Shown: piece by piece, positions 11,798 through 28,049 of the stretch
Position numbering within the stretch: position 1 is the first letter of the stretch
Layout: each line of letters opens with the position of its first letter
NCBI RefSeq assembly: GCF_000188195.1
Contig: NZ_GL831047.1
Coordinates: 39,205-84,262, forward strand
Origin: Succinatimonas hippei YIT 12066
GTDB lineage: Bacteria; Pseudomonadota; Gammaproteobacteria; Enterobacterales; Succinivibrionaceae
Reading direction: 5' to 3'
DNA length: 45,058 bases
The notes under the pieces: model-generated
What the model was told of the DNA's origin: nothing
The model's database searches: none
What the model saw: only the letters and a program-made list of their open reading frames with translations
Made by a program: the position numbers and the translations under genes

Positions 11798-12268
11798 ATG
11801 ACGACAATGCAGGTTTGTAATTATATCGTTGCGATATTGACATTTATTATCGGAGGCGCCATAGCGTGGACGTCATACGGCTACGGCATTGAGATGACCG
11901 TGTTCGGGCCGGGGCCCGGATTTTGGCCGTTTATCTTGGCGGTGGGGCTTATTTTGGTAGCCTTGTTGATTGTTTTTGATACGGTTAAGCATAGAGAGAA
12001 TTACGGCAAAGAAAAAATCGTATTAGCAGCAGCTGAAAATATCGGTGTCTATAAAATGATGCTGCTGACCTTGGGTTACATAATTCTTATCTATCTTGTA
12101 GGTTTTTATGCGGCTACATTCTTATTCATGTGCGCGGCGATGAAGCTTTTGGGAGCGAAACGACTGGCCACCATGCTTACGGCTTCACTGGCGTTTTTAG
12201 CAATAATTTATGTAGTGTTCGGCATGCTGCTGCATATTGCCATGCCGGTTTCCGTTTTTATGGAGTAG
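11798..12268 (+). CDS. tctB: TTT transporter small membrane subunit (TctB family)
   Basis: The 156-residue membrane protein has about four hydrophobic helices (roughly 5-27, 38-60, 83-105, 115-150). The FGPGPGFWPFILAVGLILVALLI stretch near 32-54 is characteristic of TctB. It pairs with TctA in the inner membrane. GAGG precedes the ATG. It sits 32 bases after tctC and 4 bases before the chosen start of tctA. Confidence 0.9.
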   Translation: MTTMQVCNYIVAILTFIIGGAIAWTSYGYGIEMTVFGPGPGFWPFILAVGLILVALLIVFDTVKHRENYGKEKIVLAAAENIGVYKMMLLTLGYIILIYLVGFYAATFLFMCAAMKLLGAKRLATMLTASLAFLAIIYVVFGMLLHIAMPVSVFME

Positions 12269-12272
12269 GGCT

Positions 12273-13763
12273 ATGGATGCGGTATTAGAGGCAATTGCCA
12301 TTTTAGCAACCTTTGAGAATGTAGGTTTGCTGCTTGCGGGAACGGCGGTAGGCATTTTTATCGGTGCTATGCCGGGACTTAGCGTCAACATGGGACTTGC
12401 TTTGCTGTTCCCGATAACTTTCAGTGTCGGCGGTATGAGCGGTATCGTGATGCTGCTCGGCATTTACTGCGGTGCAATTTACGGAGGCTCAATTACGGCT
12501 ATATTGCTGCGTACGCCGGGAACTCCGGCATCGGCGGCTACTACGCTTGACGGCTATCCGATGGCGATGATTAACGGGCAGCCGGGGCGGGCGTTATCCA
12601 TTTCGACTATGGCTTCGACTTTCGGCGGCGTATTTTCTACCGTTTGTTTGGTTTTATTCGCTCCGATGCTGGCCAAGGTAGCATTGCAGTTCAGCAAGCC
12701 TGAGTATTTTGCTCTTGCTGTATTCGGCATCAGCATGATAACGTCGGTGTCATCAGGCTCAATTTTAAAGGGGCTGGTAAGCTGCTTAATCGGCTTGTTC
12801 ATTGCTACTATCGGTCTTGACGCCATGTCGGGTCTTGAGAGATTCACTCTGGGTACTTTGTATCTGTCAGGCGGTGTATCTTTCATGCCGATATTGATAG
12901 GATTGTTCGCGTTGACTCAGGTGTTCGTCAATGTCGAGGATGCATATAAAAACGAGCAGAAAAAGCAGAACATCAAGATTGACAACGTATTACCCACTTG
13001 GGCTGATTTTAAATTAACATTGTCGACTTTGCTGCGCTCTTCCTGTATCGGCACTTTTATCGGCTGCGTACCGGGAACGGGCGGTGATATTTCTTCCTGG
13101 ATATCCTATGACCAGGCCAAACGCTGGGCTAAAGATAAGTCACAGTTCGGCAAAGGCGATCCGCGCGGAATTGCCGCTTCAGAATCAGGAAACAACTCGA
13201 TTGTCGGCGGAGCTTTTATTCCGGTATTGACCCTGGGTATTCCGGGAGACGGTGCCACTGCAATTATCTTGGGAGCCCTGATGGTACACGGCATGCAGCC
13301 CGGACCTTTGCTCTTTGTTGACCATGCTCCTGATGTATATGCAATATTTATCGGCATGATGGCGGCTAATATCGTGATGGGCATTATGGGATTTTCTTTA
13401 ATCCGCCTGTTCGTCAAGGTAGTTAATATTCCGCGCATCATCCTGCTGCCGATTATTACCATTATGGCGATAATCGGTACCTATTCTTACAATAACTCCA
13501 TGAACGACGTACTTATTATGTTTGCCGCAGGTATTGTCGGATATTTCATGTATAAGATAGGTATGGGCGTTCCGGGGGTAATTATCGGCATTATTTTAGG
13601 CTCGCTTGCCGAGCAGAACTTTACGGGTTCATTGATGATGAGCGACGGCAGTTTGTCCATTTTCGCCACCAATCCGATTTGTGCCGTCTTCCTCGTGCTG
13701 TCGGTGATATCTTTGCTCTCTCCTTTGTATAAAGGAATGCTTGGCAAGATGTTTAAAAATTAG
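12273..13763 (+). CDS. tctA: TTT transporter large membrane subunit (TctA family)
   Basis: This is the large translocation subunit, 496 residues from the ATG at 12273, which has GGAG at 12262-12265. A longer frame starts at 12237 but it overlaps the end of tctB. Signatures: GAMPGLSVNMGLALLFPITF at the N-terminus, GAIYGGSITAILLRTPGTPA near 70, GCVPGTGGDISSWISYDQAK near 260-280, and the second conserved GNNSIVGGAFIPVLTLGIPG with GMQPGPLLF near 300-350. Last gene of the operon, followed by a strong terminator. Confidence 0.95.
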   Translation: MDAVLEAIAILATFENVGLLLAGTAVGIFIGAMPGLSVNMGLALLFPITFSVGGMSGIVMLLGIYCGAIYGGSITAILLRTPGTPASAATTLDGYPMAMINGQPGRALSISTMASTFGGVFSTVCLVLFAPMLAKVALQFSKPEYFALAVFGISMITSVSSGSILKGLVSCLIGLFIATIGLDAMSGLERFTLGTLYLSGGVSFMPILIGLFALTQVFVNVEDAYKNEQKKQNIKIDNVLPTWADFKLTLSTLLRSSCIGTFIGCVPGTGGDISSWISYDQAKRWAKDKSQFGKGDPRGIAASESGNNSIVGGAFIPVLTLGIPGDGATAIILGALMVHGMQPGPLLFVDHAPDVYAIFIGMMAANIVMGIMGFSLIRLFVKVVNIPRIILLPIITIMAIIGTYSYNNSMNDVLIMFAAGIVGYFMYKIGMGVPGVIIGIILGSLAEQNFTGSLMMSDGSLSIFATNPICAVFLVLSVISLLSPLYKGMLGKMFKN

Positions 13764-13792
13764 CAGATATTAAAAATTAAATTTCAGCTTTT

Positions 13793-13830
13793 AATCCTCA
13801 GTTTGTCATCTCCCGCTGAGGATTTTTTTT
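13793..13830 (+). terminator. Terminator of the fuc-TTT operon
   Basis: AATCCTCAG (13793-13801) pairs with CTGAGGATT (13816-13824) over a 14-nt loop and is followed by a T run to 13830. It lies 30 bases past the tctA stop. Confidence 0.88.
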
Positions 13831-13854
13831 ATCAAAAAAGTTCAGCAGCTAAAA

Positions 13855-14109
13855 CTCTGTTCTTCAGAACGGAGATATAAGGCATATGCTATACTGCTGT
13901 CAGATAAAGTCTCACAAATTCAGACAAAAACCAAGTCTGTATTTACAAAGACATTAAATCAACATAAACAAGGGCAGGACTTGCCCGGATTGCCTGTCAA
14001 GCGAACCTCATAAGAGGTCGGCAGCAAGAGCCCGCCGAAGCTAATAACATTAGCACTATTGTTGTTTAGCAGTAGGAATCCCCAGTCTTTAGACCGAGGA
14101 GGAAGTCAA
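13855..14109 (+). mobile_element. Hairpin chain ending in an IS605-type right end / omega-RNA-like motif, no tnpB
   Basis: The gap between tctA and the next gene holds no ORF but a run of stems: CTCTGTTC/GAACGGAG (13855-13874, one wobble), CAGAC/GTCTG (13921-13939), GGGCA/TGCCC (13972-13986), ACCTC/GAGGT (14005-14018), TCGGC/GCCGA (14018-14038) and GCTAAT/ATTAGC (14040-14054). It ends in GGAATCCCC-AGTCTTTAGAC-CGAGGAGGAAGTCAA (14075-14109). That end matches the general form of IS200/IS605 right ends, where tnpB omega-RNAs terminate. The first hairpin could be the left end, giving a non-autonomous element of about 255 bp. Neither tnpA nor tnpB coding sequence is recognisable. Recognition is from memory of the motif, not a search. 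Confidence 0.5.
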
Positions 14110-14149
14110 ACTTGATAAATAAACAAGTTACTATTTTTTAAGTGGTATT

Positions 14150-15820
14150 ATGATCGATTATTCCAAACTGCCATTAAGCATTACAGCATTTAGCGAATTT
14201 TGTGAAAGAAACAAAATCTATATTGATAAAACGGATTTAGTCGCTAAATTGGCTCAATTTGATGCTCCGATTTTTCTATCCCGTCCGCGCAGATTTGGTA
14301 AATCGACATTAGTAAGCACTTTTCATGAGCTTTTCTCAAACGGTCTTGATAAATTTCAAGGTCTTAAAATTGTCACTGAAAACTTATGGAAAGATACGAC
14401 TTATAAAGTCATACATTTAGATTTTTCAATAATAAAAGAGAGAGGGGAAAGGTCTTTTGACCAATCCTTGCTCACGCAGTTAAAAATAGCATGCAAAGAT
14501 TTACCGGAAAATACTGATTTAGCAGATAGCTCCAATACCTATTTGCAGTTTTTTCTAACACAACAAAGCGATACTAAATTTGTTTTGTTGATTGATGAAT
14601 ATGACGCCCCTTTAACTGCAGTGATGGGAGATAAAGAGGAGTTTGAATCAAGAAGAAGAGTATTATCAAACTTCTTCTCCACGATAAAAGCCTATTCAGG
14701 CAAATTTCGCTTTATTTTTATCACTGGAGTGACACGTTATTCAAATACTTCAATATTCTCCGCCTTCAATAATATTGAAGACATAAGTTTTAATCCTGAT
14801 TACGGCGCTATTGTCGGTTACACTCAAGCTGAGCTTGAGAATTATTTTAAAGACTACATTGAATACGCAGCTAAAGCGTTAAACAAAAAAGAAAAGACTG
14901 ATAAATATACCTATGAGCTTATTTTAGAAGAGCTCAAAAATAATTATGACGGCTATTCATTTGATGAAGAGTGTGAATGGCATGTTTATAACCCGTGGTC
15001 AATATTAAACTTTTTTAAAAACGCACAGCGCGGTTTTAAGCCCTATTGGCTTGAGACGGGTGGGGCGAAGCCGTCGCTTTTGGTAAATTATCTAAATACT
15101 TTTATTGATAAAAAAGTAAAGAAGACCGAGCTTGTCGATTATTTAAATCTTGAGTTTATAAAAAGAACCAACATCGCGGCATTATCTCCCACGATAACAA
15201 GTATTGAGGATGAGAACTTTCCTTTCTTTGCCATTTTGTACCAGGCAGGGTATTTTACGATTAAAGATACTGATGCTCCCGACCTCATGGTCGGCATACC
15301 AAATCTTGAGGTAAAGGAAGCTTTTGCCGATATCGTGCTTGAGAAACTAACGAATAAGGACGGCACGGCTTTAAGGGAGAGCTATAAGCAGGCGATAAAG
15401 GGTGCACTTAACACCAAAGACTTTAAAGCGCTAAAAGATGAATTCAACAAAATCTTAAATGAATTTTCCTATGAAAGCGTAATAAGTTTTAAAGAATACG
15501 CCTTTCGTGATGTTTATAAAGTGATGCTGCAACTACTTGGCTACAACACCTATACTGAGTATCAGACGGCACTTGGAAGAAGCGATTTATGCTTTGAAGA
15601 TGACAGAAGACTTTATATCTGTGAATTTAAGGTTATAGGCAGGGCTGACAATGTTCAAGAGAAGCTTGCTGATGCCAAAGAACAAATCAGGGAAAAGAAG
15701 TATGGTTTAAGAATCACCGATAAGGAAGTTATTACGCTTGCCGTTATCATTGTTAATGAAAACGCAAGCGACAAGCATAAACCTATGCGTGAAGTTGCTG
15801 CAATTGAAGAGGTCATTTAG
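14150..15820 (+). CDS. AAA-ATPase-like protein with C-terminal PD-(D/E)XK nuclease domain
   Basis: The protein has 556 residues. The N-terminal P-loop ATPase (AAA-ATPase_like, PF09820 type) has Walker A RRFGKST (Lys51), Walker B FVLLIDEYDAPL near 147-158 and the arginine-rich FITGVTRYSNTSIFSAFNN sensor region. The C-terminal PDDEXK_9-type nuclease fold has Asp479 (GRSD), Glu492 and Lys494 (CEFK). Such genes are multi-copy in many gut and oral bacteria; their role is unproven (defence or mobile-element related has been suggested). The window itself has a second, broken copy at 1-305. The 5' leader is the IS605-like hairpin region, and the ribosome-binding site is weak. Confidence 0.85.
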   Translation: MIDYSKLPLSITAFSEFCERNKIYIDKTDLVAKLAQFDAPIFLSRPRRFGKSTLVSTFHELFSNGLDKFQGLKIVTENLWKDTTYKVIHLDFSIIKERGERSFDQSLLTQLKIACKDLPENTDLADSSNTYLQFFLTQQSDTKFVLLIDEYDAPLTAVMGDKEEFESRRRVLSNFFSTIKAYSGKFRFIFITGVTRYSNTSIFSAFNNIEDISFNPDYGAIVGYTQAELENYFKDYIEYAAKALNKKEKTDKYTYELILEELKNNYDGYSFDEECEWHVYNPWSILNFFKNAQRGFKPYWLETGGAKPSLLVNYLNTFIDKKVKKTELVDYLNLEFIKRTNIAALSPTITSIEDENFPFFAILYQAGYFTIKDTDAPDLMVGIPNLEVKEAFADIVLEKLTNKDGTALRESYKQAIKGALNTKDFKALKDEFNKILNEFSYESVISFKEYAFRDVYKVMLQLLGYNTYTEYQTALGRSDLCFEDDRRLYICEFKVIGRADNVQEKLADAKEQIREKKYGLRITDKEVITLAVIIVNENASDKHKPMREVAAIEEVI

Positions 15821-27640: not shown

Positions 27641-27655
27641 TCTTTGACGGTGAAG

Positions 27656-27811
27656 ATGACCATGCTCATCCGTAAGCGTAAGTATCCTACCGTTAGAGCA
27701 AAGCTGCGGGGCGAGGCGTTATGGTCTTCATCTTATTTTGCTTCATCTTGCGGAGGTGCTCCGATATCTATTATCCGGCAATATATTGAGCAGCAGAAAA
27801 CGCCGGATTAA
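27656..27811 (+). pseudogene. C-terminal remnant of an IS200/IS605-type tnpA (Y1 transposase)
   Basis: A 51-codon frame ends LRGEALWSSSYFASSCGGAP then ISIIRQYIEQQKTPD, the typical C-terminus of IS200-family Y1 transposases (ALWS.SYF..S.GGAP...I..YIE.Q). The catalytic HUH motif and Tyr region are absent, so it cannot transpose. The following bases (about 27820-27862) contain CCGCCCTGAAGGATGGG, a decayed form of the right-end hairpin. It abuts the truncated DUF4143 gene on the opposite strand. Confidence 0.7.
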
Positions 27812-28049
27812 AAACTGAGATTCTCCCAGCGATGCTCTCCGCCCTGAAGGATGGGTTTTAGCCGCTGATCTTTTTTTGATAAAATTTACTGATTTAATCA
27901 AAACGCCCGTGTTTTGTTTTCATCTTGGCAAATTCGCTTTGCAGGCAATGTATAATGCGCATGAAAATGAATTAAGTATGATTCTTTAATATGAAAGTGA
28001 TTGAATCTGCTGATTTTAATTTGCGTTGGTTTGGCTTTAGGGAATATTT
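27812..28049. other. Gap with decayed IS200 end and probable usg promoter
   Basis: The left part holds the right-end-like sequence of the tnpA remnant. The right part has a consensus TATAAT at 27951-27956 with TTGGCA at 27925-27930, but the spacing of 20 bases is longer than ideal. No ORF is supported. Confidence 0.45.

Follow-up and report, generated by a model that had tools for sequence, protein, structure and literature searches.

IS605 elements are believed to stay in place because TnpB cuts the site that an element has just vacated. For both IscB and TnpB systems, omega-RNA genes located away from the nuclease gene have been discussed. Among elements that lack a transposase, the palindrome-associated transposable elements (PATEs) of Haloquadratum are IS605 derivatives, as the available part of their description has it (PMC3119063). 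A Halanaerobium element, in the accessible part of its report, retains 28 nt of the left end, the final 58 nt of tnpB and the entire right end but lacks tnpA (PMC7290912). RNA families for IS605 elements also exist in Rfam, according to the portion of the article at hand (PMC11701678).

Here we compare with these systems a locus of Succinatimonas hippei YIT 12066, located in a stretch of 45,058 nt (the window). The element at 13833-14109, called the window copy, is very likely a non-autonomous IS200/IS605-family element of the PATE kind, descended from an IS605-type ancestor, moved in trans and with its guide scaffold kept. It probably depends on the proteins of related elements elsewhere.

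Boundaries and Anatomy of the Element

The window copy sits between a gene that we take, from its sequence and not from a family search, to be tctA (12237-13763) and an AAA-ATPase_like/PDDEXK_9 gene (14150-15820; Pfam), whose start codon lies 40 bp from the element end. The tctA product has similar proteins, at 77-83% identity, in Anaerobiospirillum, Succinivibrio and a further member of the Succinivibrionaceae. A hairpin with a perfect 9-nt inverted repeat (13793-13801/13816-13824) follows tctA, and the element is inserted in or after its T tract; the terminator scan, with a loop limit of 8 that this loop exceeds, did not call it. The features of the locus, in window coordinates, are as follows.

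13793-13828, forward strand: terminator-like hairpin and T tract 3' of tctA, outside the element (from the sequence)
13828-13832, forward strand: TTTAT on the left flank, the insertion target and the TAM expected for TnpB (from the left-end comparison)
13833-14109, forward strand: complete IS200/IS605-family element without tnpA and tnpB, 277 bp, its ends common to copies with differing flanks
13855-13874, forward strand: left-end subterminal hairpin CTCTGTTC-TTCA-GAACGGAG (from the fold; similar sequence in other left ends)
13887-13895, forward strand: putative extended -10-like TGCTATACT of window-type copies (alignment A2)
13921-13939, forward strand: 5' hairpin CAGAC/GTCTG preceding the omega-RNA core (read from alignment A2)
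13970-14109, forward strand: predicted omega-RNA/reRNA scaffold core with stem 1, pseudoknot, helix 3, helix 4, stem 2, stem 3 and stem 4
13971-14069, forward strand: vestigial TnpB C-terminal tail of 32 codons and a TAG stop, without a start (from translation; resembles the TnpB tail on contig C28)
13978-13980, forward strand: GAC of the stem-1 loop, the 5' strand of the pseudoknot helix (structure pair counts)
14076-14109, forward strand: right end proper, with GAAT, terminal hairpin, UUUA loop (14088-14091) and TCAA at the boundary
14105-14107, forward strand: GUC shortly before the element stops, the 3' strand of the pseudoknot helix (structure pair counts)
14110-14125, forward strand: expected 16-nt guide in flanking host DNA outside the element (by analogy with the ISDra2 reRNA, as in the part of PMC8612924 available)

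A sequence-only reading of this DNA had placed the start at 13855 and seen an orphan right end. The left end shared with other copies begins behind TTTAT at 13833, which moves the start to that position with an uncertainty of one base (the C after TTTAT), and since a left end is present, this is a whole element with both ends. Each end carries a subterminal hairpin (13855-13874 and 14079-14100), and GAAT and TCAA in the right end presumably play the roles known from IS608. The chain of hairpins described by that reading in 13855-14109 is indeed present: the segment folded at -70.5 kcal/mol against a shuffle mean of -54.1 (sd 4.3; z -3.82), and 0/200 shuffles did as well. In the five sequences of alignment A2, pairing of the CAGAC/GTCTG hairpin was kept with changed letters in L020 and L028 and had decayed in L023.

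Copies, Target Site and Flanks in the S. hippei Genome

Searching the S. hippei genome (2.31 Mb, 141 contigs) with positions 13830-14150 by blastn gave 30 matching places, a count in which the left and right parts of one copy may appear separately. Fifteen of the 29 non-self matches end within 14107-14110, in agreement with the IS200/IS605-like right end that had been proposed at about 14109; two overrun it (to 14117 and 14123), eight cover the left part only and four stop earlier. The right end is sharp, with GTCAA immediately before 14110, and the DNA past the boundary differs among the 19 right ends compared. On the other side, TTTAT stands at 12 of the 13 tabulated S. hippei left ends and TTTGAT at the remaining one; TTTAT was also found at the left ends of L020, L023 and L038, TTTAAT at the second left end of L021, and TTTAT or NTTAT in relatives. 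The right flanks of the compared copies do not start with TTTAT, which indicates no target duplication.

Five copies (the window copy, L021, L023, L028 and L020) have a common interior and occupy different loci, and we refer to them as window-type. Compared without gaps (gapped flank identities are inflated), the flanks of the first four are unrelated, with 4-8 matches in 20 positions on the left and 6-9 in 25 on the right. Their elements are 74-90% identical to one another, and the identity of L021, L023 and L028 to the window copy is 81-90%, so the lineage of the window copy may be old. L028, which is protein-less, has lost part of the omega-RNA scaffold. The fifth copy, L020 (C79:56043-58200), was 77% identical in the genome search and has a different IS605 element (tnpA-tnpB) nested inside it. 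L021 was also considered as a nested insertion, a reading that we rejected because the sequence presumed to be its host is not resumed in the right flank. Many other copies in this genome are eroded. When the regions downstream of tctA orthologues were inspected by eye in the four closest relatives, the DNA was not alike, so that an empty site was not recognized, and no such element was seen within 420 bases.

The window holds a second trace of the family at 27650-27878 on the reverse strand, consisting of a left end after TTTAT and a divergent tnpA fragment; no right end was found for it, nor any further trace in the window. Four S. hippei right ends (L035, L044, L045 and L157) share only about 47 nt with the window copy, and their occurrence suggests that spreading may not depend on the RNA. 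No left ends were established for these short right ends. At L157, L035 and L044 (contigs C71, C2 and C34), a different repeat of about 100 nt is fused to these last ~47 nt, perhaps another element type sharing the end. No phage match was found, and one 19-mer searched for exactly had none in viral contigs. Four plasmid records matched weakly, one of them under an annotated TnpB: on an Azotobacter plasmid, a quarter of the query aligns at 75.3% (E 2e-3), in the 5' half of the core, and the aligned segment falls inside the 3' end of the annotated TnpB gene.

AAA-ATPase_like/PDDEXK_9 genes or fragments were observed near ends of the element family at several loci (window 14150-15820 and 63-296; C53:1118-2785; C6:16078, seen by eye; C34:12196-12231, a weak match at E 0.041). 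This proximity is possibly more than chance.

Partner Proteins TnpA and TnpB

As the sequence-only reading had stated for its neighborhood, the window copy has no adjacent tnpB, and the whole window is without a tnpB-family match. Elsewhere in the S. hippei genome, TnpB (PF07282) was found over the cut-off and without stops in two places, one at the end of contig C28 and one nested in C79; one further match over the cut-off contains two stops and two lie below it. Some 60 bp past the right end of L023 there is a tnpB fragment that contains two stops (C109:6393-6584), and a query with the full family TnpB added short N-terminal or middle pieces on C8, C124 and C30. The C28 piece (guided_TnpB, E 6.6e-39) is the C-terminal part of a TnpB without stops, has the same right end as the window copy and is interrupted by a run of N and the contig end. 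The tnpA places other than that on C79 are partial or contain stops, and the fragmented 141-contig assembly yielded neither cognate gene, tnpA or tnpB, in intact form. The intact TnpA-TnpB pair on C79 was rejected as the partner, as it belongs to the different IS605 nested in L020, whose right end is ...GTAGTTCAC.

A tnpB with a matching right end, which the sequence-only reading had proposed to look for, is thus represented in S. hippei by the C28 piece and, more fully, by a single-contig relative from another genus (G037). All 14 matches found there with our covariance model R1 (described below) were fetched, and 14/14 follow an open tnpB frame, of 429-434 codons in 13 cases and 306 in one, with the copy at the tnpB 3' end. 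In another relative (G003), 11 of the 25 matches were examined. One G037 locus (L186) is a full element of about 1.88 kb that runs from TTTAT through a left-end hairpin, tnpA in reverse and tnpB in forward orientation to the right end. Its TnpA is a Y1 transposase (Y1_Tnp E 5.4e-41; NF033573 E 3.3e-41) and its TnpB matches guided_TnpB (E 1.6e-82) and is similar to solved TnpB structures (8h1j, E 5.2e-33, which we take to be ISDra2 TnpB). The ends of L186 match those of the window copy, with the Y1 transposase encoded inside. A second type in G037 (L194 and others), about 1.46 kb long, contains tnpB only. A TPP riboswitch was seen at 2536-2634 of the L186 locus, about 145 bp to the right of this tnpA/tnpB-bearing copy.

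The Omega-RNA Scaffold

The scaffold core, which is the last 140 nt of the element, ends at the right boundary. In copies that carry tnpB, it shares sequence with the 3' end of that gene. Judged by its sequence and covariation, it is predicted to be a TnpB omega-RNA scaffold with the ISDra2 layout, pseudoknot included. Model R1 was built from 22 cores, and the window copy, itself one of these source sequences, scored 163.9 bits. At E <= 1e-6, R1 matches were present in 26 of the 56 family genomes and 8 of the 14 genera, among the matches listed. Alignment A1 comprises 22 of 23 cores, L033 being left out; the matches L091 and L097 were not carried into it, and right ends that are partial or at contig ends (L029-L032, L034, L035, L037, L038, L043-L045) stayed unaligned. 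Alignment A3 takes one match from each of 47 chosen sources, a part of the matches listed.

Covariation supported the structure, strongly in A3 and less clearly in A1. With 32 pairs including the pseudoknot, 91.0% of the cells of A3 were paired; 220 cells showed changes on both sides, where shuffles gave 55.2 (sd 6.5), and 25 pairs had changes on both sides against 16.3, shuffle tests being inflated by the relatedness of the sequences. The covariation score of A3 was 0.473, compared with 0.183 in shuffles and 0.041-0.091 for slid structures. Because A3 was fitted to the R1 structure, it leans to the 24 pairs of R1, from which the pseudoknot and helix 3 are absent. The pseudoknot helix was paired in 92.6% of cells, mostly unvaried or changed on one side, and three of the four helix 3 pairs had changes on both sides, while the third stem-2 pair as assigned (columns 150/222) was unpaired in 39 of 47 sequences. 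In A1, eight pairs were changed on both sides, a value reached by 10/500 shuffles, and covariation was 0.182 against 0.131, reached by 0/500. An early consensus fold and a first version of helix 3 (columns 26-30 with 57-61) were replaced by a CCUG/CAGG-type pairing, which copies in other genera had suggested. The window copy forms 38 of the 41 pairs of the first structure, with three broken; in the revised helix 3, its RNA has a C-A mismatch, and in the predicted fold it forms a local hairpin.

No Rfam family matched the window copy at its gathering score, and the Rfam IS605 RNA families gave no match in 13750-14200 at E up to 1. The null result lowers the case for membership in those families, not the structural claim.

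Protein-Less Copies Across Genera

Complete elements without tnpA and tnpB were found in S. hippei (the window copy, L023, L028 and L021, the latter with a gap of N) and in relatives (L084-L087 in G002, L079 and L200 in G003, L091 in G054), so that TnpB-less elements are present in four genera. Their interiors differ among the four sets, and at least four separate deletions are therefore likely. The two copies of G003 are almost identical, align over their whole 324 bp (score 309) and lie at different, unrelated sites, from which we conclude that protein-less units move. TnpA probably acts in trans on them, given the protein-less copies at different sites.

The leftover TnpB tail is broken by stops or a shifted frame in four of the nine protein-less copies counted. 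Using the first structure, before the revision of helix 3, these four retain 41/41 (L079), 40/41 (L085), 38/41 (L020) and 35/40 (L087) pairs. The other five have no tail stop, so relaxed coding is not seen in all, and they retain, of 41 pairs in the same structure, 38 (window copy), 41 (L021), 34 (L023), 39 (L084) and 38 (L086). Copies that bear tnpB or its remnants have 34-39 pairs, and there is thus no clear difference between them and the protein-less copies. In L079 and L080, by our reading, the change through which stem 2 becomes complete (CCUA/UAGG) falls together with the tail stop.

Putative Promoters

The promoter scan found no sigma-70 pair in the window copy. Its best PWM site lies elsewhere than TGCTATACT, the extended -10-like sequence common to window-type copies (L023 has CATACT instead), and was equaled by 112 of 300 shuffles. 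The number of shuffles, again of 300, that scored at least as high as the copy was 5 for L021 (with N removed), 6 for L084, 14 for L091, 35 for L086, 43 for L087, 47 for L085, 82 for L028, 217 for L079 and 265 for L023. In L084-L087 and L091, a -10 ends 9-12 nt upstream of the core, which makes a promoter-RNA fusion plausible in G002 and G054. A similar sequence was seen by eye upstream of a tnpB start in L088. For a fusion of this kind in the window copy, the promoter case is weak.

Proposed Mechanism and Alternatives

We propose that an IS605-type element with divergent tnpA and tnpB lost both genes by an internal deletion that would have left the two ends and the guide-RNA scaffold, and that this derivative entered the T tract downstream of tctA, on the 3' side of TTTAT. 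A Y1 transposase (TnpA) supplied in trans would move the element, or would have moved it, by single-strand peel-and-paste. By analogy with ISDra2, as set out in the available part of PMC8612924, TnpA in trans would excise it as a single-strand circle and insert it 3' of TTTAT. If the element is transcribed, the RNA would run past 14109 and carry about 16 nt (14110-14125) as a guide. It would load into TnpB made elsewhere, which may also process its 5' end (PMC10278001, in the part available). After excision, TnpB would cut the empty site, composed of TTTAT and the guide sequence, and repair from the sister copy would restore the element.

The identity of the element would be the same if it were a dead remnant, an IS605 derivative in which the RNA structure is merely inherited and no longer made or used; the disagreement is on whether the element works. 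The erosion of many other copies in the genome, an assembly without intact cognate tnpA or tnpB, the weak promoter of the window copy and the loss of part of the RNA in L028 would all be expected of such a remnant. Against this, the window copy has both ends complete, an interior common to four other loci at different sites and 38 of 41 RNA pairs, and some protein-less relatives retain their RNA pairs despite having lost the tail reading frame. We consider inactivity a substantial possibility, though not the favored one. The sequence-only reading had left three options, namely a non-autonomous element mobilized in trans, a decayed element and a domesticated guide RNA. Mobilization in trans is now the best supported, since unrelated sites harbor protein-less units that have their interior in common; decay fits the window copy less well, yet as a dead remnant it retains the appreciable probability just given.

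Domestication would mean that the host has retained the omega-RNA and that the guide from 14110 onward addresses a chromosomal target, for example in regulation of the AAA-ATPase-like gene. The element does end close before the start codon of that gene, and some other ATPase-like loci are also near element ends. However, TTTAT followed by the guide, allowing up to three mismatches, matches no other site in the S. hippei genome, which speaks against a host regulatory target. The variable flanks of the 19 right ends compared, the window without a tnpB-family match and the four relatives in which the element was not seen behind tctA point the same way, and we regard this option as very improbable. 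It is harder still to see the locus as an ordinary 3' UTR or leader structure (a terminator, riboswitch or sRNA) that merely resembles an IS end. A structured RNA between two genes would suit such a view, but the sharp multi-copy boundaries, the target site at the left end, the tnpB partner and the lack of an Rfam match at gathering score leave it next to no credibility.

Building on a non-autonomous element moved in trans, we tentatively entertain a further reading, on balance doubtful, in which these elements are mobile guide-RNA genes of several origins within one family, with both proteins shed and the omega-RNA complete, and hence two-fold parasites of IS605. TnpA supplied in trans would serve their movement and TnpB, likewise in trans, the defense of their insertion sites; in some lineages a promoter, perhaps the one of tnpB, would have come to lie directly upstream of the omega-RNA. 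Should the guide RNA still work in elements without protein genes, the protection given by TnpB could be borrowed in trans. The guide RNA itself would then be the selected mobile unit, a plausible step toward the situation in CRISPR, where guide RNA and nuclease are separate. The family offers a natural comparison for this idea among tnpB-bearing copies, protein-less copies that bear the RNA and the ~47-nt right ends.

Comparison with Known Systems

HgcC (RF00062), an RNA known from archaea, matches the same cores below its gathering score of 50, which was reached in 0/56 genomes. The matches are located as follows.

Window 14017-14122, forward strand: sub-threshold HgcC match, 20.9 bits
L186 2263-2401: sub-threshold HgcC match, 30 bits
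L079 1162-1315: sub-threshold HgcC match, 28.7 bits

At E up to 0.01, HgcC matches occur in 17 of the 56 family genomes, and the omega-RNA model has overlapping matches at 52 of the 70 listed places. HgcC may therefore be the omega-RNA of archaea, and we do not claim membership of our cores in HgcC. Of the five HgcC RNAs confirmed in Thermococcus, three are read from inside transposase genes and two are not, according to the part of the study available (PMC4247193). Speaking against the equation of HgcC with omega-RNA, 18 of the 70 places have no partner among the model matches listed, and an HgcC control also gave a signal in Corynebacterium glutamicum, where the TnpB control did not.

The closest parallel for the RNA is ISDra2. 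Its RNA likewise stops at the right-end boundary and its T-rich target doubles as the TAM (PMC8612924, available part), and its omega-RNA shares with our scaffold stem 1 and a pseudoknot, stems 2, 3 and 4, and a UUUA loop in stem 4 (PMC10097598, available part). The window copy differs from ISDra2 in that tnpB is missing in cis, stems 1 and 2 are separated by an additional helix domain, and the target is TTTAT instead of TTGAT. The nearest match in anatomy is the 271-nt, ends-only IS605 element of Halanaerobium, which is built in nearly the same way; in the accessible part of its report, one copy is described and it is not read as the carrier of a guide RNA (PMC7290912). PATEs resemble the window copy in lacking a transposase and in having subterminal palindromes and IS605-type ends. 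Some of them arose by core deletion, and HqIRS71 keeps an extended terminal segment that includes part of the C-terminal coding region. Unlike here, guide RNA, covariation and a partner TnpB are not part of the analysis in the available portion of that 2011 work, which preceded omega-RNA (PMC3119063). Among the titles and abstract openings searched, mostly outside subscription journals, no omega-RNA-bearing protein-less element was described. Transposase-free IS605 derivatives have thus already been published, and the carriage of a guide RNA is an interesting variant of them.
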